Below, in pieces: positions 3,575 to 13,865 of a DNA stretch of 64,000 bases (positions are counted from its first letter, which is position 1; each line of letters starts with the position of its first letter). A program made the translations under genes and the position numbers. Source of the DNA: an uncultured Clostridia bacterium (GTDB lineage Bacteria > Bacillota > Clostridia > Oscillospirales > Ruminococcaceae); contig CANQXS010000007.1 in assembly GCA_947627875.1 (NCBI GenBank), positions 1-64,000 of the forward strand, given 5' to 3'. The notes below the pieces were generated by a model. The model saw only the letters and a list, made by a program, of their open reading frames with translations, was not told the DNA's origin and searched no databases.

Positions 3575-4564
3575 ATGTACAACGCAAGCGATAAAAGATA
3601 CGAAAAAATGCCCTATCGGCGCTGCGGAAAGAGCGGCTTAAAGCTTCCGGCGGTGTCGTTGGGACTTTGGCAGAATTTCGGCTTCAAGGGCGTTTACGCC
3701 AACATGGAGGCAATGATACATACCGCCTTTGATCTCGGCGTCACCCATTTCGACCTTGCGAATAACTACGGCAGCCCGTATAACGGCAGCGCCGAGGAGA
3801 ATTTCGGCAGAATTTTGCGGGATATGCGGCATTACCGCGACGAGATGATAATTTCTACAAAGGCGGGCTACGAGATGTGGGAAGGACCTTACGGCGACCG
3901 CAACGGCAGCAGAAAATACCTGACCGCCTCGCTCGACCAGAGCCTCAGGCGAATGGGGCTTGAATATGTCGACATCTATTACCACCACGTTTTTGACCCG
4001 AACACGCCACCTGAAGAGACCGCGCTCGCGCTTGACAATGCCGTCAGGCAGGGCAAGGCGCTCTACGTCGGAATATCGAATTACAACAAAGAGCAGACTG
4101 CGGAAATACTCAAAATCTTCAAAGAGCTGCGGACGCCTTTCGTCCTGAATCAGCCGAGCTATTCGATGCTGAACAGGTGGATAGAGGGCGACGGGCTCGA
4201 CAGGTTCTGCCTCGAAAACGGCATCGGGCTGGCGGTGTTTTCTCCGCTCTATCAGGGATTACTGACGAATAAATATCTCAACGGTGTTCCGCAGGATTCG
4301 CGTATCGGTCGAGGGGAAACGTGGATAGGCGGTCAGCTCAACGAGAGGATGGTTGCGCGGCTCAACCGGCTGAACGAGATTGCAAAAAGCCGCGGGCAGA
4401 CTCTCTCGCAGATGGCGCTGGCGTGGATTCTGCACAACGAAGCTGTCACAACGGTGCTTGTCGGCGCGAGCAGACCCGAGCAGATAGTCGAGAATGTCGG
4501 GTGCATCGGTCATCTCGATTTTACCGAGGACGAGCTCAAAGACATCGAAGAAATATTGAAATAA
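3575..4564 (+). CDS. Aldo/keto reductase, YghZ/Gpr-like
   Basis: 329 aa (beta/alpha)8-barrel NADPH-dependent oxidoreductase. The N-terminus (YRRCGKSGLKLPAVSLGLW) is typical of the YghZ/Kv-beta-like branch, whose E. coli member reduces L-glyceraldehyde 3-phosphate and methylglyoxal. The catalytic tetrad is visible: Asp60, Tyr65, Lys96 (STKAGY) and His138 (DIYYHH). The C-terminal coenzyme-binding segment VLVGASRPEQIVEN is intact. The start has GGGAGG 8 bases upstream. It appears monocistronic, ending at a strong hairpin terminator. The exact aldehyde substrate cannot be read from sequence. Confidence 0.9.
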   Translation: MYNASDKRYEKMPYRRCGKSGLKLPAVSLGLWQNFGFKGVYANMEAMIHTAFDLGVTHFDLANNYGSPYNGSAEENFGRILRDMRHYRDEMIISTKAGYEMWEGPYGDRNGSRKYLTASLDQSLRRMGLEYVDIYYHHVFDPNTPPEETALALDNAVRQGKALYVGISNYNKEQTAEILKIFKELRTPFVLNQPSYSMLNRWIEGDGLDRFCLENGIGLAVFSPLYQGLLTNKYLNGVPQDSRIGRGETWIGGQLNERMVARLNRLNEIAKSRGQTLSQMALAWILHNEAVTTVLVGASRPEQIVENVGCIGHLDFTEDELKDIEEILK

Positions 4565-4576
4565 CGGCATAAAACG

Positions 4577-4606
4577 AAAGGAAGCCCGATTTGAAGGCTT
4601 CCTTTT
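4577..4606 (+). terminator. Intrinsic terminator after the aldo/keto reductase
   Basis: AAAGGAAGCC, 9-base loop, GGCTTCCTTTT. Confidence 0.8.
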
Positions 4607-4693
4607 ATGTGCTCCGATTTTTTCTTTGAATCCCAACCTTTTTCGCTCCGAAAATGTCTTATTAACGAAAGCTTTCAGGAAAGGACGAATAAA

Positions 4694-7600
4694 ATGCCTC
4701 ATCTCACTTGTTCGGACGCCTCTTTGGTGCTTCTGACGCTCTCGGGCGACCCCACCGCTTATGACGAGCTCGTAAGGCGGCACGAAAAGAGAACCCGCGC
4801 CTCGGCGTATTCGGTAATACATAACGCTCATATCGCCGAAGACGCGGCTCAGGACGCTTTTTTGGCGGCGTGGCTCAAGCTTGACCGGCTTCGCGAACCG
4901 GAAAAGTTCGGAATATGGGTATCGCGTATCGCCAAGAACTGCGCAAAAAATATGGCGATCCGCTTCAGAAACTATCTGAGCCTCGACGACGTCGAGAACA
5001 TCGAATATATCCGCTCGGAAGATTCCGACCCCGAACAGATGCTTTTGACCGAGGAAGAGGCGGAACTTATGCGCCGCGGGCTGCGAAAGCTCCCCGAACG
5101 CTCTCAGCAGGTTGTTTATCTCCATTATTACGAGGACATGAGCGCCGAGGAGATTGCCAAGCTGATGGGAATATCGGTCGGGACGGTAAAATCGCAGCTC
5201 CACGACGGCAGAAAGAAAATGCGAAAGGAGCTATGCTCAATGGATGAAAAATTAAATGATACTCTGCTCACAAAAATCAGAAAGAAGATAGAAGAAGTAA
5301 AGAGCTGGCAGTTCAGAAACTCGAAGAAGGGCTTCGACAAGGTATATAAGGACGTTCTGAAGGACATCGACACGATGCCAGAATGCCGCGAGAAGTACCA
5401 CGCTCTCGCCGACGTTTTGATGCGCGGCTACTGGTGGCTCCCCGGCGAAAAGAACGATAAGCTGCTCGAAAGGATAAAGGAAGCCGCGCTCCTCGGCAAA
5501 AACAACGAGGTGATGTATTCCGTCTTATACCGCGAGTCGCTGAAATACTGGGACGACGGCAGGCGCAACCACATCAAAAACGTTCAGATACCCTCGCTCG
5601 ACCCCGCTGATTTTCGGCTCACGATAGCCGAACTCTGGCGCTGTTATGCCGACAGCACCAAGCCCGAAAAAAAGGACGAGGCGCTTGAGGCTTACGACAC
5701 CGCGCTCAAGCTCTTAAAGCCCGACGAGCCGCTCTATTATGCGGTAGTCAGCTCTAAGGAAAACTATGAAAAAGCGGCGACGGAGGAGTTTATAAGCGAC
5801 GATCAGAACCGCCTTCTCCTGGGCGGGGTGTTCGAGCTCGGGCTTTCGGGCGGAGTCAGACTCGGGGACAGCCGCTACAACGGCTTCGGCGAGCTTTATT
5901 CCTACAACCGCAACAACGGCTATATATTGGATAAGCTTTTTGCGTGCGACAACCTGATGACCGCCGACATAAAGCCCGGCGAGAGCTTTACCGCCTCCGA
6001 CGGCTCGACGCTGACCTTTGAATCCGACTGCGAAACGGTAGAGGTCCCCGCCGGAAAATTCATCGGCTGCGAGGTCTGGACCTCACGGCTCAGGACCAGC
6101 GGCGTTACCTGCCGAAGCTGGCTCAAGAGCGGCGTAGGCGCAGTGAAGCAGGAGATAATCTCGGAGGGCGCAGCCGAGGTTAAGCTGCTGAAATCATATA
6201 AGACAGTCGGCGGCGACGGGCTGCTGCCTATCCACAGGGGCAATTTCTGGGAATACGAAACCGACGGCAACCCCGAGACATACGCCGCTTCCTGGAGGAT
6301 AGACATTCCCTATTGCGAGGGCGAAAATGCGGTCGCCGTTGTAAACGTTGAAGCCGTCAGGAAAAAATACGACGAAGACTCCTGGTTCGATATGATTTTA
6401 AAGACTCGCGCCGACTACTGCACCTGCAGATCCGCCGATGAGTCGAAGATACAGGACGTACGCCCATATGCCAAGCGCGCGATAGAGCTTGCAAAAACGC
6501 CCTATGAAAAGGCTTACGCCGAGACCGCCTATTCGGTCGTGAAGAGGATAATCGAGACTGATCCTGTATTCGATCCCGACTGCGAGGCGACAGGCTTATG
6601 GAACTTCTTCAACCGCTACGAGATCAGCACCGACGACGGAAAGACGTCGCTTTTGAAGAGCTCCTCAAGATTCAGCTTTGAATGGAAGAGATACGACGGC
6701 ACCGCCCTTTGCGACCGCCTGTGCTCTAACCACATCTACTCGATACTGAGCGACGTCGCCGGCTGCCTCTTCGACGAGCAGTGGAAGCCCGGCTACAGCT
6801 CCGAGGAAGCAAGGGATTATTATTTCGACGACGCTCTCAAGGTAAAAATAAGCTGCGAGAGCGCGGGGACCGTCGAGGTAAAGGCGGGAAGCTTTGAAAA
6901 CTGCCTCTCGGTGGATACCGTATGCGAAGGCTTACCATACGGTCAGGAATACCGCGGCGGCAGAAGGACTTATTACTTCGCGCCGGGAGTCGGGCTCGTA
7001 AAGGTCGAGATATACACCAAAATGGGCTTTAAGAGCGCCTACGAGCTGACCTCTTACGAGGGGACCGGCGAGGGCTATATGCCGATCAAAGAGGGAATCA
7101 GGCGGCGCTATGAAGACTTAGGTCTGACGGACGGCTACGTCGGCGCGGCGGAATATATTTACGCCAAGGACTGCGAGGGCAAGACCGTTGTCTTCAGCGA
7201 CGCCACCGGAATAAGGCATATGCCTCGGAAGATAACCCGCTATGATTCCATAATGGGCGAACAGGAGGAAGAACGCCTTGCCGACGGGGAAAAATACAAC
7301 GAGGCGAATTTAGAGGGCTGCTGCAACGCGATAAATATCCTTCTTTACCAGATGACCAAGGGCTTCCACCACTTCTGGGATCCGATAAGAAAGGCAAAGA
7401 GGTTCTTATATAACTACCGCCTTATGGAAGCTGCCGGAAACGGAGAAATCGCGTCGGCGTTTTATGCGAGGGCTTCAAGGACGTGTCTTTTAGCTGCGGT
7501 TGCTTTCATCGGCGGCGGGCAGAAGGACGAGGGCTATAAGTATTTAGAGCTTGCGCTCGACTATGCCGAGGAGTGGAAGGCTATCCCCGAGGGCGAAAAG

Positions 7601-7846
7601 CTCAGCTTCGGCGACGAAGCCGTATTCGGGAACATCTTTTACATCAAGGGGCAGTCGGTGATAGAGCTTCCCGACGGTTCGAGGCGCCAAATCGACGCCG
7701 ACGGCTCGATAGACGGCTGGCTTTCCGACAGCGGAATGATCTATTACGCCATGACCGCCCCGAGGGGCTGGGAATGGTTCGACCCCGCAAGAAACGATGA
7801 AAGATATAAGGCTTTGACCGAGCGCGCGAAAAAGCTCGCCGAATAG
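4694..7846 (+). CDS. ECF-type sigma-70 factor fused to a very large C-terminal region
   Basis: 1050 aa from ATG 4694 (AGGAAAGGA upstream); an in-frame ATG at 4607 has no ribosome site. Residues about 23-92 form sigma region 2 (DAAQDAFLAAW core) and 126-180 region 4 (LPERSQQVVYLHYYEDMSAEEIA, then SVGTVKSQLHDGRKKM as the -35 helix-turn-helix). The remaining 870 residues match no family I recognise: a helical stretch to about 365, then a beta-rich module present twice (core 445-522 and 717-808, marked by VEVPAGKFIGC and VEVKAGSFENC and ending MPI/LPI...YE). No TM or signal peptide is seen, so the whole should be cytosolic. Ordinary ECF factors are near 180 aa. An in-frame start with a good ribosome site lies at the junction. 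It may sense a ligand and drive its own regulon; this is inference. Confidence 0.85.
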   Translation: MPHLTCSDASLVLLTLSGDPTAYDELVRRHEKRTRASAYSVIHNAHIAEDAAQDAFLAAWLKLDRLREPEKFGIWVSRIAKNCAKNMAIRFRNYLSLDDVENIEYIRSEDSDPEQMLLTEEEAELMRRGLRKLPERSQQVVYLHYYEDMSAEEIAKLMGISVGTVKSQLHDGRKKMRKELCSMDEKLNDTLLTKIRKKIEEVKSWQFRNSKKGFDKVYKDVLKDIDTMPECREKYHALADVLMRGYWWLPGEKNDKLLERIKEAALLGKNNEVMYSVLYRESLKYWDDGRRNHIKNVQIPSLDPADFRLTIAELWRCYADSTKPEKKDEALEAYDTALKLLKPDEPLYYAVVSSKENYEKAATEEFISDDQNRLLLGGVFELGLSGGVRLGDSRYNGFGELYSYNRNNGYILDKLFACDNLMTADIKPGESFTASDGSTLTFESDCETVEVPAGKFIGCEVWTSRLRTSGVTCRSWLKSGVGAVKQEIISEGAAEVKLLKSYKTVGGDGLLPIHRGNFWEYETDGNPETYAASWRIDIPYCEGENAVAVVNVEAVRKKYDEDSWFDMILKTRADYCTCRSADESKIQDVRPYAKRAIELAKTPYEKAYAETAYSVVKRIIETDPVFDPDCEATGLWNFFNRYEISTDDGKTSLLKSSSRFSFEWKRYDGTALCDRLCSNHIYSILSDVAGCLFDEQWKPGYSSEEARDYYFDDALKVKISCESAGTVEVKAGSFENCLSVDTVCEGLPYGQEYRGGRRTYYFAPGVGLVKVEIYTKMGFKSAYELTSYEGTGEGYMPIKEGIRRRYEDLGLTDGYVGAAEYIYAKDCEGKTVVFSDATGIRHMPRKITRYDSIMGEQEEERLADGEKYNEANLEGCCNAINILLYQMTKGFHHFWDPIRKAKRFLYNYRLMEAAGNGEIASAFYARASRTCLLAAVAFIGGGQKDEGYKYLELALDYAEEWKAIPEGEKLSFGDEAVFGNIFYIKGQSVIELPDGSRRQIDADGSIDGWLSDSGMIYYAMTAPRGWEWFDPARNDERYKALTERAKKLAE
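5224..5242 (+). promoter_or_regulatory. Internal ribosome binding site and in-frame ATG at the sigma/C-terminal junction
   Basis: AAAGGAG (5224-5230) is followed 9 bases later by ATG 5240, in frame with the sigma fusion (Met183). Translation from here would release the 868-residue C-terminal part without the DNA-binding sigma domains. This is exactly where a separate downstream gene would start in an ordinary sigma/anti-sigma pair. Confidence 0.5.
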
Positions 7847-7866
7847 CTCGGCTCAAAATCAATACT

Positions 7867-7909
7867 GCGGCGCGGCTGCTCCCCAATTTGAGCGGCTGCG
7901 CCGCTTTTA
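7867..7909 (+). terminator. GC-rich terminator hairpin after the sigma fusion
   Basis: Long imperfect stem (GCGGCGCGGCTGCTC against GAGCGGCTGCGCCGC) followed by TTTT. The rest of 7910-8046 shows no gene. Confidence 0.75.
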
Positions 7910-8046
7910 TGCCCGAAAAAAGCCCACCGTTCCCTATAAAATGAACATTTTCGCAACAATCCTGCAAAAATAAGCGCCGAAAGCCCGCTCAAATCGTTCA
8001 AAACGCCAAAGTATGAATAATCGCGGATAAATTTATGCAAAATCGG

Positions 8047-8076
8047 TTGACACCCGAGCTCCGGCTGTGTTAAAAT
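8047..8076 (+). promoter_or_regulatory. Sigma-A promoter for citrate synthase
   Basis: Perfect TTGACA (8047-8052), 18-bp spacer, TAAAAT (8071-8076). Confidence 0.75.
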
Positions 8077-8120
8077 ATAATTGATTCACCAAATTCCGTA
8101 TTTTGACGAAGGGAGCTGCA

Positions 8121-9476
8121 ATGATACTTAAAATCGACGAACAGACAAAGAAAACTTTGAGCGACAGAATATACGACAGCAACCGCATCGACCCGAAATA
8201 TTACCACCGCTACGACGTAAAGCGCGGACTCAGAAACGCCGACGGAACGGGCGTAGTCGCGGGGATAACGAATATCTGCAACGTCCACGGCTACGTTATG
8301 AACGAGGGCGAAAAGCAGAATATCGAGGGCGAGCTTTACTACCGCGGCTACAGCATCAACGACATAGTTGATTCCGTCGAGGCAGACGACCGCTTCGGCT
8401 TTGAAGAGGTCGCCTATCTGCTGCTTATGGGCGTTTTGCCGACTGCCGAGCAGCTCAGGAGCTTCAACAACGCTCTCTCCTTCAACCGCGAGCTGCCCGA
8501 CGGCTTCTTTGAGGATATGATGCTCAAGGCGCCTTCAAGAGATATAATGAACAAAATGGCAAGGTCGATACTTGCGCTCTATTCCTATGACGAATCCCCC
8601 GAAACCAAAACTCCGGAGGACGAGCTTATGACGGCTATCTCGATAATCGCGAAGCTGCCGGTAATAGTCGCTTCGGCTTATCAGGTAAAGCGCCGCTGCT
8701 ACGACGGCAAGACTATGTATATGCATCAGGTCCGCCCCGAGGAGAACGCCGCCGAAACGCTCCTTTCGCTCTTAAGGTTCGACCGCAATTTCACCTATGA
8801 GGAAGCCAAGCTTTTGGACCTTATGCTTATGCTCCACGCCGAGCACGGCGGCGGCAACAACTCCGCCTTCGCCTGCCGTGTCCTCACCTCTTCGGGGACC
8901 GACCCATATTCGGCGTATTCCGCGGCGATAGGCTCACTTAAAGGACCCCGCCACGGCGGCGCGAATATAAAGGTCCTCGAACAGCTCGACTATTTAAAGG
9001 CGAATATCCGCGACTGGAGCGATGAGGGCGAAATAAGGGATATGCTCAGAAAGATACTCCTTAAAGAGGCGGGAGACCGCACCGGGCTTATCCACGGTAT
9101 GGGTCACGCGGTATATACCTTATCCGACCCGCGCGCGGTGATACTCAAGCGCGAGGCAAGAAAGCTCGCCGAGGGGACCCCTTACGAGGACGAGTTGAAG
9201 CTTCTTGAAGCCGTAGAGCGCAACACAGGCGAGATCTTCGCCGAGGTCACAGGCAACGAAAAGACCCTCTGCGCGAACGTCGATATGTATTCCGGAATCT
9301 GCTACAGAATGCTCAGGATACCCGACGAGCTCGCGACGGCGCTGTTCGCAACCGCGAGGATAGCCGGCTGGTCGGCTCACAGGATCGAGGAGCGCCTGAC
9401 CGGAGCGAGGATAATCCGTCCGGCTTATAAATCGGTCGGAAAGCCGAGAAAATACACCCCCCTTTCGGAAAGATAA
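8121..9476 (+). CDS. gltA: Citrate synthase
   Basis: 451 aa from ATG 8121, chosen because AAGGGAG lies 5 bases upstream; an in-frame ATG at 8103 lacks one. It condenses acetyl-CoA and oxaloacetate to citrate in the cytosol. The catalytic triad of the family is present: His242 (HAEHGGGN), His278 (GPRHGGAN) and Asp336 (LSDPRA). Length and motif spelling fit the clostridial type-II-like group. It stands alone between a promoter and a terminator, with no aconitase or isocitrate dehydrogenase beside it, so it probably serves glutamate synthesis through a partial TCA route. Methylcitrate synthase is less likely but cannot be excluded. Confidence 0.92.
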   Translation: MILKIDEQTKKTLSDRIYDSNRIDPKYYHRYDVKRGLRNADGTGVVAGITNICNVHGYVMNEGEKQNIEGELYYRGYSINDIVDSVEADDRFGFEEVAYLLLMGVLPTAEQLRSFNNALSFNRELPDGFFEDMMLKAPSRDIMNKMARSILALYSYDESPETKTPEDELMTAISIIAKLPVIVASAYQVKRRCYDGKTMYMHQVRPEENAAETLLSLLRFDRNFTYEEAKLLDLMLMLHAEHGGGNNSAFACRVLTSSGTDPYSAYSAAIGSLKGPRHGGANIKVLEQLDYLKANIRDWSDEGEIRDMLRKILLKEAGDRTGLIHGMGHAVYTLSDPRAVILKREARKLAEGTPYEDELKLLEAVERNTGEIFAEVTGNEKTLCANVDMYSGICYRMLRIPDELATALFATARIAGWSAHRIEERLTGARIIRPAYKSVGKPRKYTPLSER

Positions 9477-9510: not shown

Positions 9511-11961
9511 CTATTTATTCTTGGTGTCTTTCACCGCTATCCTGTCGAGGTCGGGGGAATAGCCCGAGCCGAGGGTCAGTTTAACGGTGTTCTTGCCCTT
9601 TTTGAGCTCGGCTTTGAGGCTCGCCTCGGCGGGGATATCAAAGCCCGGGCTCGAAAGCCCCGAGAGCTTAACGGTCTCGCCGTTTATTATAACGTCGAGG
9701 TCTCTTTTTTCGCCCGTGCAGAAGTAGATCAGCATTTCATACTCGCCGTCTTCGGGGGCGTTCACTGTTATCTCGACCGAGTTGAAGCTGCCGTTCCCGA
9801 CGTATCCGACCTTTTTGCCGCCCGAGCACATCGAGCCGTCCGAAATATTCGCCGCACCCGAGAGCTTGCCGTCCTCGCATTCGTAATAGGTGTAGCCCTC
9901 CTTTTCGGAGTCGGGAGAGCCCGCGACTTCGGTGTCTACGGTATCTTTCGTTATCATCACCGCCGCGCCGCCTATGTCGGGCATATCGAGCCTGAGCTTA
10001 TCCTTTGAGGTCACGGTTTTGGTCTCAAGGGCGAGCTTTCCGCCGTCGTCATAGTAGATATATGCGTTATATGAGCCTTCGCCGAGAAAATCGAGCTTTA
10101 TATCCGTAGAGCGCTTTTTCAGGGTCATCGAGCCGATATAGAAGTCGTCGCCCGACTGCCTAAGATAGGTTATGAAGTCGCCGGGGTAGCCCTCGAGGAC
10201 CGTCGAGGAATCCCACGCGCAGGGTATCCTGTTGAGCAGCGGAAGTCCCAAGAAGCTCGGGAAGGCGTAGGCAGAGCTTGCGAAATGCTGCAAAGCCGAC
10301 TCGTAAACAACGGCTTTTGCAAGGCTGAACCCAGCGCTTTCGCCGGTTTTGGTTATCGCGATGCAGGCGGGAGTGTAGTCCATTGAACCGACAACGTTGC
10401 GGGTAAACGGGTACATCAGGCAGTTTTTCGGCGAGGGCGCTTCGCTCCACTTTCTGAATTCCTCGCCGAGAACTGCTTCGCTCGTCATTATGTTCGGATA
10501 GGTCCTCGTTTCGCCGCAGGGGTGAATACAGCCATGGTAATATATCATCAGGTGGTGCTTAGCGCCTATCTCAGCGCAGTTTTTCATAACCTCGAGCACG
10601 TCTACGTCGTCGCTCTCGAAGTAGTCGGTCTTAACGCCGGCAACGCCCCATTTTTCCCACTGAGCGAAGGTTTTTTCTATCTCCTCGGGGGTCTTGAGGT
10701 GGAGATAGTTGACCCAGAGGATAATCCCGACGTTCTTTTTAGCGGCGTAGTCACAGAGCTCCTTTATCCTGTCCTCAAAAACGGGCCAGCCAGCGTCGAG
10801 GCAGCAGTATTCCCAGCCGTTTTCGGCGGAGAAGTCGACGTGGTCCACCTGAACGTCGTAGTTATGCTGATCTCCGCCCGACCACCACGACCATGAGACC
10901 TTGCCCGGCTTTATCCAGCTTGTGTCTTTAAAGAGCTTTGCGTCGGGGTCGGGGCAGAGGGAATCTATCATATCCGAGCCGAGGAGCCCGTTGAGGTCGT
11001 CGGCGATTATGACTGCGCGCCAAGGCGTCTCGAAGCCGTTTTCGACCGAAAATTCGGTTATTCTCACATGCCCGGGGCTGAGAAGGTCGTCGGTGACTTC
11101 GTTGAAGGGGTCGCGCTTGAAGCCGAAGCCCCATTTGAGCTTTGCGCTGCCGCTCTCGGTCTCAAGAACGCTCTTGACGTAGCTTATGTCGTTCGCATAA
11201 ACGTCGGATTCCGAAACGAGCGCCCATTTGTCGCCGATTTTTGCGGTCAGCGGGGTGTTGAATACGCCCGCGTGGTTTTTGAGGTCGCCGTATTTTCGCT
11301 CGACATAGTCGAATTCATAGGTAGCGCTGTAGCCGCCCGCAAAGGTGACCGTCCCGTCGGGGAAGCATATTTCGGTGTTTTCGGCGGTTACATAAGCCTT
11401 TTTGCCGGTCCCCGCGTTTACGTCGGAATACCTGAAAGCGAAGCCGTCGTCATAGAGCCTTATTTTAAGGGTGCAGCTCCCGCCCTCTTTTTTCAGGAAT
11501 ATCTCCCGCTCCATACAGTGGTCGGTGAGGCTCTTTTCGAGGCTCAGGGTCAGCGCGGTCTCGTAGCTGTCGTTTATCTCGTCGGCTCTGTCGTAGGCGG
11601 TTATCTCCTCTATTCCGTAGGAAAGGCTGCAGCCCGACGCCGTGATCCCGAGCTTTGAAATCTCGATGATACCGTCCTTCCCGCTCTCAACGCTGTAATA
11701 GACCCAGCCGTTGTCATCCTGCCAGAAGCGCGCGGTTATCTTTCCCGAGGGCGATGAGGTCGTGAGCTCCTCGAGCGGATAAACCTTCGTGCCGTCGGGG
11801 GCGGTCTTTTTGGCGGAGCCTTTTGTTACGGTTATAAGCTCCTTCGGCTCGCCCCGGGGCTTCTTCGGGGCTCCGCCAGAGTCGGAACACCCGCTGAGGC
11901 AGGAGGTTACCGCCGTGATTATAACTGCCGCGGCGATGATGAACGCTGATTTTCTTTTCAT
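9511..11961 (-). CDS. GH97 glycoside hydrolase lipoprotein with C-terminal CBM
   Basis: 816 aa. The signal peptide ends in a lipobox LSGC (Cys25), so it should be anchored on the outer face of the membrane. Residues about 60-330 are the GH97 N-terminal beta-sandwich, 350-600 the catalytic barrel (WSWWSGGDQHNYDVQ), then a C-terminal sandwich. From about 690 a CBM6/35-like module begins (YECEDGKL...VGYVGNGSF). Asp446 in VKTDYFESDD sits where retaining GH97 enzymes carry the nucleophile, and Glu495 (TSEAVLGEE) is a likely acid/base; this favours a retaining, alpha-galactosidase-like enzyme over inverting SusB-type alpha-glucosidase. GH97 is mostly known from Bacteroidetes, so transfer is possible. 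It lies 54 bases after the 2-TM gene and may share its transcript. Confidence 0.88.
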   Translation of the reverse strand: MKRKSAFIIAAAVIITAVTSCLSGCSDSGGAPKKPRGEPKELITVTKGSAKKTAPDGTKVYPLEELTTSSPSGKITARFWQDDNGWVYYSVESGKDGIIEISKLGITASGCSLSYGIEEITAYDRADEINDSYETALTLSLEKSLTDHCMEREIFLKKEGGSCTLKIRLYDDGFAFRYSDVNAGTGKKAYVTAENTEICFPDGTVTFAGGYSATYEFDYVERKYGDLKNHAGVFNTPLTAKIGDKWALVSESDVYANDISYVKSVLETESGSAKLKWGFGFKRDPFNEVTDDLLSPGHVRITEFSVENGFETPWRAVIIADDLNGLLGSDMIDSLCPDPDAKLFKDTSWIKPGKVSWSWWSGGDQHNYDVQVDHVDFSAENGWEYCCLDAGWPVFEDRIKELCDYAAKKNVGIILWVNYLHLKTPEEIEKTFAQWEKWGVAGVKTDYFESDDVDVLEVMKNCAEIGAKHHLMIYYHGCIHPCGETRTYPNIMTSEAVLGEEFRKWSEAPSPKNCLMYPFTRNVVGSMDYTPACIAITKTGESAGFSLAKAVVYESALQHFASSAYAFPSFLGLPLLNRIPCAWDSSTVLEGYPGDFITYLRQSGDDFYIGSMTLKKRSTDIKLDFLGEGSYNAYIYYDDGGKLALETKTVTSKDKLRLDMPDIGGAAVMITKDTVDTEVAGSPDSEKEGYTYYECEDGKLSGAANISDGSMCSGGKKVGYVGNGSFNSVEITVNAPEDGEYEMLIYFCTGEKRDLDVIINGETVKLSGLSSPGFDIPAEASLKAELKKGKNTVKLTLGSGYSPDLDRIAVKDTKNK

Positions 11962-12015: not shown

Positions 12016-13098
12016 TTACTCCTCCCGCATTGTGTTTATCGCAAAAACGACTCCGCTCATCGGGTATATCCACCTGTTTTGCAGGTTGAATTCAAAGGAG
12101 TCCATATTGTGAGTCGCCTTTTCGAGCGAGCTGTCCTCGCAGTCGTTGAGGAAGGAAAACGCCTTTACCTCCATCTCGTTATCGGGGTAGGAGAGCTCGA
12201 TGTCGGGCGCATAAGTCGGCTCGGAAATTGAAACCATAAAGTCGTTCACTCCGCGCTTCTGGGGCATCGAAAAGCTTATGTCGACGTCATGCTCCTTCAG
12301 CGAAACGTCGTGCTCCGAAGAGAAGTTTACGGTTATAAGATTCTCGCCGAAAACGATATCCTCGAGCGCTGCGTGCTTGCCGTCTATGTAGATCGAGAGG
12401 TGGAGCTCCTTTTCGATAAACTCCCGCTGCTGCTCTTGGGTCATATCCAGAAGCGCCTGAAGCTCGGGAGGGTTGATAACGAGCTTTTCCTGGAAGATAT
12501 ATGTGCGGTTCCTTAAAGCGTCGTCGAGGGCGCTGTCGCTCATTATATACGCCACGCTGAATTTGCTCGGCAAAAACGAGCCGCCGGAATAGTTCTTGCG
12601 ATATTTTAAGCTCTCGTTTATCCTGAAATAGTCGGCGTCGGCAAAGAGCTCGCTTTTTGCGCTGCTTCTTAAGGTTATTTTATATCTGAACATCGACCTG
12701 CTGTTGTATTTTCCGGTGATATAGGGCTCCATCACGGCGTAGACCATACCGTAGGATTCCTCCCCGACAAGGTGCTTTACGGTGTTCTTTACAAAGCGTA
12801 TCTTGTCCTCGTCTTTAAAGGCGCTTATCGCCTCGGATTCCCCCATAAGGGTCTGGGTTATCTTCTCGCTTATATCCCCTGCGATGTTGTCGCGGGTGAT
12901 ATATTCGAGCCCGAAGTCGAATATAAGCAGCGGCGGGATTATACCTATCATATTCGAGACTATGTCGTCGATAACGTTTTTGCCGTCGGCGCCCCAGAAG
13001 TGGAGCTTAACAAGAAACAGCAGCGCCCATATCAGAAGCGTTATCGCAAAGAGCAGGAATGTCTTGATCTTCATATCCTGTTTGTTTTTCCTATTCAT
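12016..13098 (-). CDS. Two-TM protein of unknown function coupled to the VanX-like gene
   Basis: 360 aa. Two hydrophobic segments near the N-terminus (about 12-33 and 47-64) are followed by a roughly 290-residue soluble domain that is mixed alpha/beta, with no Cys-rich, nuclease or ATPase motif I can name. With both termini inside, the large domain would face the cytosol. Its ATG overlaps the stop of the VanX-like gene (ATGA, 13095-13098), a sign of translational coupling. The 2-TM plus C-terminal domain layout resembles that of several membrane effectors and sensors, but no family is recognised and I assign no function. Confidence 0.7.
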   Translation of the reverse strand: MNRKNKQDMKIKTFLLFAITLLIWALLFLVKLHFWGADGKNVIDDIVSNMIGIIPPLLIFDFGLEYITRDNIAGDISEKITQTLMGESEAISAFKDEDKIRFVKNTVKHLVGEESYGMVYAVMEPYITGKYNSRSMFRYKITLRSSAKSELFADADYFRINESLKYRKNYSGGSFLPSKFSVAYIMSDSALDDALRNRTYIFQEKLVINPPELQALLDMTQEQQREFIEKELHLSIYIDGKHAALEDIVFGENLITVNFSSEHDVSLKEHDVDISFSMPQKRGVNDFMVSISEPTYAPDIELSYPDNEMEVKAFSFLNDCEDSSLEKATHNMDSFEFNLQNRWIYPMSGVVFAINTMREE

Positions 13099-13778
13099 TT
13101 TTCAGTCTCCTTTATGATACCTCTGTATATAGCCGGTCTGCCTGTGTAATAGCTCCAAAAGTTGTCGCCGTAATCGTAGTGCCACCATTCGAGCGGGTAA
13201 TTCGTAAATCCCGCCTCGGTCATAACGCGGTATAAAAGCCTGCGGTTGTCCCTTACAACGGCGCTGCCCGAGTTTTCAAAATGAGCCGTGAGCGATTTTT
13301 CGGTGAAGTCGTCGAAGCCGGTCCCCATATCGAGCTCCCTGCCGCTTTCGGTTTCGATTATCGTAAGGTCTATCGCCCCGCCGGAATTATGGACAGAGGG
13401 GCGGTCGGGGTCTAAAGAGGGGAGTGAGACAAATCTTTTTGTTTCTGTTCTGAGCCTGTTTTCGTCCCAAGATGGGTTTTGCTCTTTCAGAAGCCCGTAG
13501 AACTGTTCAAACAGAGCAGTCTGGACCTCTGCGGGTCTCCAGGCGTCAAAGACCTTGAAGGTCAGCCCCTTCGGCAGGCGGGAGAGCGCGTCTTCAAGGA
13601 GAGCGACCGCCGACTTCCTGAGCAGGCAGCAGTCGACCGCCCCGGGAATGCCCCGAAGGAAATACTGCGGAGAAATCGCTATCCTGCCGCCGAAATGCTC
13701 CGAAAGCGATATAAGCGGCTCGTCGGTAAAGCTGACGCCCGCGCGGTCCTGCGGCGGTTCCTTATTCGGTATAAACAT
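13095..13778 (-). CDS. D-Ala-D-Ala dipeptidase, VanX-type peptidase M15D
   Basis: 227 aa from ATG 13778 (AGGGTGAT upstream); a longer in-frame reading to 13847 lacks a ribosome site. The zinc ligands are in place: His130 and Asp137 in SVHNSGGAID, His200 in EWWHYDYGD, with Glu197 as catalytic base and Arg81 (DAWRP) matching VanX Arg71. The family hydrolyses D-Ala-D-Ala, either in glycopeptide resistance or in peptidoglycan turnover/recycling. No signal peptide is seen, so it is cytosolic. No vanH or vanA-type ligase is nearby, so this is probably a housekeeping or scavenging enzyme. It is translationally coupled to the downstream 2-TM gene. Confidence 0.88.
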   Translation of the reverse strand: MFIPNKEPPQDRAGVSFTDEPLISLSEHFGGRIAISPQYFLRGIPGAVDCCLLRKSAVALLEDALSRLPKGLTFKVFDAWRPAEVQTALFEQFYGLLKEQNPSWDENRLRTETKRFVSLPSLDPDRPSVHNSGGAIDLTIIETESGRELDMGTGFDDFTEKSLTAHFENSGSAVVRDNRRLLYRVMTEAGFTNYPLEWWHYDYGDNFWSYYTGRPAIYRGIIKETEK

Positions 13779-13865
13779 AACATCACCCTGCAAAGTAGTT
13801 GATATAATTCGCCATCTTTTGCGGTTCCCGACGAAGTCGTGGAGCAAAAGGGCGACTAAAGCAAA

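Follow-up and report, generated by a model that had tools for sequence, protein, structure and literature searches.

Much of bacterial signalling runs through extracytoplasmic function (ECF) sigma factors. At least 26 of their groups carry extensions, and 15 of these are counted as lacking a described mechanism (PMC8999054). Extensions of the SnoaL type (ECF56, ECF205, ECF294 and ECF295) measure 120–150 residues, that of ECF42 about 200, and those of ECF48, ECF52 and ECF53 up to 400 (PMC8999054). In ECF41 and ECF56 (e.g., SigJ) a stand-alone sigma factor is, or is expected to be, under the control of its fused SnoaL domain; ECF42 (e.g., Sven_0747) joins an ECF sigma part to a partly helical tetratricopeptide repeat (TPR) extension and has no anti-sigma factor; and ECF52 (SCO4117) and other sigma/anti-sigma fusions have long multidomain extensions of up to 400 residues with a zinc finger and transmembrane helices. 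Here we analyse a giant ECF sigma factor encoded by a 1050-residue open frame at 4694–7846 on the forward strand of a 64-kb stretch (64,000 nucleotides, the window throughout this text) of contig CANQXS010000007.1, from the assembly GCA_947627875.1 of an uncultured Clostridia bacterium of the family Ruminococcaceae. The protein is about five times as long as a usual sigma factor, and its architecture (a sigma part, a helical arm, two DUF3108-like beta modules and a tail) is conserved, as is a promoter block ahead of the gene. The best account of it, which we hold to be rather probable, is that of an ECF sigma factor that stays in the cytoplasm, stands alone and has its regulator built in.

The sequence-only reading of this DNA held that ECF regions 2 and 4 are complete and that the frame then stays open for 870 further residues, and both Pfam domains indeed score far above their cut-offs: Sigma70_r2 (PF04542) at residues 26–87 with 43.6 bits (cut-off 24, E 2.6e-11) and Sigma70_r4_2 (PF08281) at residues 126–176 with 64.5 bits (cut-off 25.7, E 6.6e-18). 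The sigma part occupies residues 1–182 (4694–5239, forward strand, as are all parts of the gene given below), matches the NCBIfam model sigma70-ECF TIGR02937 with 95.4 bits (cut-off 42.9) and in Pfam shows regions 2 and 4 but neither 1.1 nor 3, the pattern of ECF (group 4) sigma factors. The extension had also been called far longer than known ones, and it is: 870 residues against about 400 or fewer in the available text of the review (PMC8999054). Compared with ECF42, whose extension is TPR-rich and about 200 residues long, the window protein has two beta modules and a conserved promoter of its own. Unlike in ECF41 and ECF56, the modules are DUF3108-like and doubled, the extension is about six to seven times longer, and Pfam finds no SnoaL domain up to E 1, which also sets the protein apart from ECF205, ECF294 and ECF295. 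The zinc finger and transmembrane helices of ECF48, ECF52 and ECF53 are both missing from it: Pfam gives no zinc finger and no anti-sigma domain up to E 1, and with a highest 19-residue Kyte-Doolittle mean of 1.2 the window protein has no transmembrane segment. In NCBIfam the extension is without any match up to E 1.

A plainer classification would make the protein a member of one of the defined extended groups ECF262, ECF264 or ECF288, with nothing new at the level of groups. The review lists regulatory extensions for all three, with model proteins from Ruminococcus albus, Saccharibacillus sacchari and Blautia producta, and both the extensions and those hosts speak for membership; the extension lengths stated in the portions available to us, however, do not exceed about 400 residues, and ECF288 is described there as cysteine-rich (PMC8999054). 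Judged from these descriptions, by which alone the groups were compared, we regard membership as unlikely. The open PMC literature yielded no paper on a giant ECF of this kind, and what is new here is the ECF-type promoter ahead of a giant ECF gene across its family.

The extension contains a beta-rich module twice. Module 1 (residues 365–560, 5786–6373; AlphaFold strands 373–556) has a lipoprotein-like half at about residues 420–505, and module 2 (residues 628–845, 6575–7228), recognised by PF21347 and by its homology to module 1, is DUF3108-like at 723–782. The duplication had been noticed from the letters alone, and profile comparison of the two modules upholds it (hhalign probability 96.4%, E 1.4e-9, 112 columns); modelled alone, module 2 reaches a predicted local distance difference test score of 84.7 and a predicted template modelling (TM) score of 0.86. 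A further pair of modules appears in L083 (G369), where residues 417–841 are matched twice. The accompanying statement that the module could be matched to no known family is not supported: PF21347 (DUF3108_like) scores 27.7 bits against the whole protein at a cut-off of 27, a weak match over profile positions 138–195 of 199 only, and the C-terminal half of the module is present in what look like exported lipoproteins of other Bacillota. Against module 2 alone the same profile gives 20.1 bits and in a six-frame search of the genome 19.8 bits, both under the cut-off. The search by hidden Markov models and by structure that had been proposed for the extension was divided in its outcome, with PF21347 at its cut-off on one side and, on the other, fold matches that, among those listed, are only weak, mostly to ligand-binding types (START/Bet v 1, PRELI and LolA). 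Sequence searches of the PDB returned no match at E below 0.02 for either module or for the C-terminal part, and the helical arm matched designed helix bundles only (E 0.007–0.009), which we judged to be chance. Two fold matches of the whole model were left unused for poor superposition: 4xrw, a two-domain aromatase/cyclase and the sole PDB match under E 0.001 (E 4.7e-4, TM 0.07/0.20), and a viral protein (E 1.3e-5, TM 0.08/0.07).

Among the closest known systems are the DUF3108-like (PF21347) lipoproteins of Bacillota and the solved putative lipoprotein 4fvs. The module has nine free relatives whose N-termini, read by eye, are lipoprotein-like, and module 1 aligns with them at an hhalign probability of 98.4%, a score that is not independent of the A2 profile with which they were collected. 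Three module-bearing lipoproteins (L155, L159 and L161) have a further C-terminal domain that may resemble GerMN. The N-terminal half of the lipoprotein domain was not detected in the window protein (hhalign probability under 3%). Whereas the Bacillota lipoproteins look exported and lipid-anchored by eye, the module of the window protein is doubled and sits in a sigma factor without an export signal; relatives of exported lipoproteins appear to be used here inside the cell, as beta modules of a sigma factor.

The remainder of the extension is helical. The stretch that had been proposed between the sigma part and the first module is present in the AlphaFold model as helices from residue 211 to 368, within a TPR-like segment at residues 183–364 (5240–5785); Pfam reports TPR at E 0.31 only, the helices being those of the model. 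A helical connector (residues 561–627, 6374–6574; AlphaFold helices 564–622) joins the modules, and a helical tail (residues 846–1050, 7229–7843; AlphaFold helices) closes the long form of the protein. This tail recurs in frames of 361–487 amino acids: among 14 tail loci of the genus, 11 have an XRE-type helix-turn-helix (HTH) near the N-terminus by reading, L057 starts inside such a domain, L045 was read in the wrong frame and the part of L054 that was read ends before this domain, and Pfam HTH_3 confirms one of the proteins (L012, the same as L059). Tail matches go down to E 2.5e-12 in the genus and 9.2e-24 in the order, the proteins read being the genus copies and the order matches being known by score alone. 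Because it stands in frames with an N-terminal HTH, the tail is common to the sigma factor and to ordinary HTH regulators, which carry an HTH in place of the sigma part and match over the tail only; four genomes have a tail protein without the sigma gene, and the two therefore do not depend on each other.

The fusion itself is conserved and under purifying selection. A contig search found 23 relatives, of which 12 are full-length, 10 cover the sigma part only and one (L023) is cut by the contig end. The 12 full-length proteins are 47–83% identical to the window protein and lie in separate bins of the ‘Lapin’ metagenome-assembled genomes (MAGs), which belong to one study whose name points to rabbits. 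A profile of the extension finds 14 of the 31 genomes of the genus: 10 (including the window’s own) encode the fusion protein, and the remaining 4 match by the tail only. Across the order it finds 55 of 394 genomes, some by the tail or a module only, and 30 loci were fetched from the matches of this order search. A sample of the phylum gave 39 matching genomes out of 398, with the whole extension only in the window’s own genome; the other 38 match in part, almost always across the lipoprotein-like half of the beta module. Within the genomes sampled, the fusion is therefore confined to the order. It takes two forms, a long one of about 1050 residues and a short one of about 870 residues that has no tail. 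The frequency with which homologues keep the fusion, which the earlier reading had wished counted, is complete in this respect: the sigma part lies in the same frame at every fetched locus with a long extension match. An assembly or frame artefact that fused two genes, named in that reading as one thing that would overturn it, could draw on the in-frame stops found in three matches of the order search (G446, G493 and G592), according to which some copies are broken or misassembled. The full-length relatives in separate bins and the invariable frame refute it for the window gene, and we give it practically no weight.

Comparison of substitution rates places nonsynonymous change (dN) below synonymous change (dS) in 7 of 7 segments against both L013 and L014, and against L021 in the four segments for which dS could be computed, the other three being saturated. 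Module 1 is the segment of highest dN in all three comparisons, which fits a part that meets a varying signal. For the upstream analyses described below, 41 members were selected whose BLAST hit begins no later than residue 20, a choice that makes the sigma part present by selection, and 10 loci were dropped from the set as duplicates or near-duplicates. The window’s own genome holds further ECF sigma factors with different extensions (L004, L005, L006 and L007, on C1 and C21; frames of 485–612 amino acids), three of them on one contig and two of these close together.

ECF promoters have an AAC-type −35 element and a short GTC-type −10 element, and the sequence CCCAACCTTTTTCGCTCCGAAAATGTCT at 4632–4659 (forward strand; −35 CCCAACC, −10 TGTCT, 16 bases between CAACC and TGTC) fits this form. 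From form and conservation we take it to be the promoter of the gene. Its core is invariant in all 14 aligned upstream regions, the window included, within a conserved block of CCAACC-TTTT, TGTC, GAAAGCTTTC and the ribosome site. The pattern CCCAACCTTTT-N12-TGTCT stands ahead of the gene in 38 of the 41 members, as against 1% of dinucleotide shuffles for this one pattern; it holds down to 34.7% identity, including short forms 35–37% identical, and the three members that it misses carry variant forms, one mismatch away in L039 and L040 and seen by eye in L042. The start codon is likely the ATG at 4694 rather than the earliest in-frame ATG at 4607, which would give 1079 amino acids, because the former is aligned in 14 of 14 sequences, because in L018 and L022 the open frame reaches no more than one codon upstream of its equivalent, and because the promoter-like block lies between the two. 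A ribosome-binding site, AAAGGA, is read from the sequence at 4680–4685 (forward strand) and is similar in most aligned relatives. No sigma-70-like promoter was found at 4500–4694, directly upstream of the gene, and an intrinsic terminator candidate follows it at 7867–7904 (forward strand; a 15-pair stem, then TTTTATG); the gene therefore looks monocistronic. The candidate has the longest stem of six terminator-like sites in 4500–8150 (the next has 11 pairs), where 5.2 would be expected by chance, and the DNA downstream of the gene is not conserved among relatives.

Promoter and gene are what the loci share throughout. When the neighbours of the relatives were compared by clustering, the flanking genes at 14 loci proved largely unrelated on both sides, pairs of loci sharing one or a few at most; apart from the family itself, eight neighbour clusters have members in two loci, four of them from the close pair L018/L019. 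An aldo-keto reductase gene is common to the window and L023, and a DUF3737 gene, which flanks the sigma gene on its opposite side, is common to the window and L022. A YCII-domain gene, which ECF42 loci have close by, is not among the 8 window neighbours scanned. Because the promoter precedes the gene in nearly all members while the flanking genes are largely unrelated, the window sigma factor very probably regulates its own gene.

Whole-genome scans extend this picture. In 11 close carriers, 17 matches to the promoter were found with up to 2 mismatches, against 4 for a reversed-pattern control, and all 11 include the gene’s own promoter; in 34 further carriers, 30 matches with up to 1 mismatch fall in 25 genomes, against 3 for the control, nine carriers being without a match. 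By comparison of coordinates, 24 of those 30 stand directly before a family gene, and one more, at G458:C46, precedes an ECF gene that is more divergent but has a similar start to its extension. The 21 genus genomes without the gene have 5 matches, all with 2 mismatches, against 2 for the control. The promoter therefore goes with the gene, and the visible regulon is mostly the gene itself; of a wider regulon these scans gave almost no sign, with 6 further matches in the 11 carriers against 5 in the 21 non-carriers.

Several sites are nevertheless candidates for further regulon members, none of them proven. The promoter motif lies ahead of a methyltransferase gene (TrmH/SpoU-like by eye; L118 and L121) in G311 and G316. 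Among 26 genomes searched at E up to 1e-25, half of them (13) carriers, this gene occurs in 3, each of which is a carrier, and the copy in G313 (L168) has no such promoter; its membership is suggestive only. At G511:C58 (L146) two promoters stand back to back, one serving the sigma gene and the other a divergently transcribed solute-binding lipoprotein-like gene. A promoter-like motif also occurs near degV in G316:C9 (L119) and in the window’s own genome at G000:C16 (L122), followed in both by an apparent sigma-70 promoter, then by a short XRE gene in L119 and by no clear gene in L122 (names and elements by eye). The element CGAACCTTTTTGACATGG... of G000 and G316 was rejected as a regulon site, being present also in the non-carrier G318.

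The earlier reading had interpreted the protein as a sensor and sigma factor in one, acting without an anti-sigma factor. This is supported in part: the longer extension and the lack of a conserved neighbour gene and of a transmembrane segment agree with it, and the weak PF21347 match goes against the novelty it had claimed for the module. That the extension regulates sigma activity is quite likely by analogy with ECF41, ECF42 and ECF238 (PMC8999054). In the mechanism that we propose, the extension would keep the sigma part inactive or away from RNA polymerase, and binding of a partner or a signal molecule to the helical arm or to the beta modules would release the block; the freed sigma part would then initiate at CCCAACC...TGTCT, chiefly ahead of its own gene, giving a positive-feedback switch that a dyad at the start site might restrain. 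Sensing by the extension is thus a proposal, and our suggestion that the signal is bound by the beta modules rather than by the helical parts is a tentative one. Control by protein interaction, as proposed for ECF42, would have the helical, TPR-like arm and the tail bind a partner protein or peptide and the beta modules serve as mere scaffolding; we think it possible, though unlikely. A different route to an active sigma part is proteolysis, in which the extension would be a fused inhibitor that is cleaved off. Such control is known for IutY and has been proposed for ECF115, ECF48, ECF52 and ECF53 (PMC8999054), whereas the window protein has neither a transmembrane segment nor an anti-sigma domain (Pfam up to E 1), and its gene has no conserved neighbour; we consider this improbable. 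If the stand-alone sigma factor with a built-in regulator is the right account, sensor-like domains, promoter recognition and feedback are united in one apparently transferable gene that may sense, switch and amplify all at once.

At the expected transcription start lies a perfect palindrome, GAAAGCTTTC (4667–4676, forward strand), identical in all 14 aligned sequences including the window. Among 40 of the 41 members (L042 was left out of this count), 34 have a perfect palindrome of at least 6 bp centred within the 9–14 nt searched after TGTCT, the centres falling at 10–13 nt, as against 10.8% of shuffles, and 20 have one of at least 10 bp, as against 0.9%; palindromes are shared by descent within clades, so that these 34 are not independent cases. 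Six members lack one by this measure (L074, L080, L081, L084, L085 and L086). There are 13 distinct strings, nine of them not extensions of one another, and the palindromes vary with the clade (GAAAGCTTTC, AAGCGCTT, CAGCGCTG, CGGTACCG, CAGATGCATCTG, GAACGTTC, TCAGAAGCTTCTGA, GCAGCTGC and GAGCTC). The letters differ between clades and the palindromy is kept; both halves therefore change together, and this varying but mostly palindromic start site amounts to a natural experiment on what is read there. In 27 start regions, hand-picked from the 40 to remove near-duplicates, arms of at least 4 adjoin directly in 20. Loops of 2 and of 4 separate the arms in 9 and 6 regions respectively, some of these being the loop-free palindromes counted again with a shorter arm, and loops of 3, 5, 6, 7 or 8 do so in only 0–2. 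Since loops are rare, the sites are more probably dyads in the DNA than hairpins in the RNA, and we set the latter aside.

Some of the palindromes (AAAGCGCTTT) resemble catabolite-repressor operators of the LacI family, and an operator of that type would be a plain alternative for part of the family. L061 and L062 are copies that look transferred and belong to two other families of the order. Each has the palindrome of its clade in the tree, unlike the remaining copies seen in these two families, and the flanking genes differ as well. These two cases would fit a palindrome read by something that travels with the gene, conceivably the sigma protein itself, which might be dimeric through its extension and bind its own start site; we rate this a long shot. 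Were it true, one protein would sense the signal, initiate transcription and regulate its own gene by binding the operator.

The gene copies look horizontally transferred. In a quick tree, in which L043 forms a long branch, proteins from another genus (G583) and from two other families (G607 and G469) fall inside the clade of the window protein at 64–79% identity, and G313, of the same genus as the window, is 43% identical to it; wrong binning of MAG contigs could mimic such transfer. Along the gene, dS against L013 (5001–8150) is 0.95–1.04 over the first 364 residues, 0.53–0.57 in the middle and 0.28–0.29 in module 2 and the tail, a drop that is a sign of recombination and makes a mosaic origin of the window gene likely. 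Neither phages nor plasmids were retained as a source: viral contigs gave 3 relatives, all with the sigma part only, and none of 269 plasmid records covers 80% of the query, the best coverage being 24% among the 5 of 269 listed. Near the sigma gene in the window lie genes for DUF3737 (877–1734), a glycoside hydrolase 97 (9511–11961) and a D-Ala-D-Ala dipeptidase (13095–13847), all three on the reverse strand.

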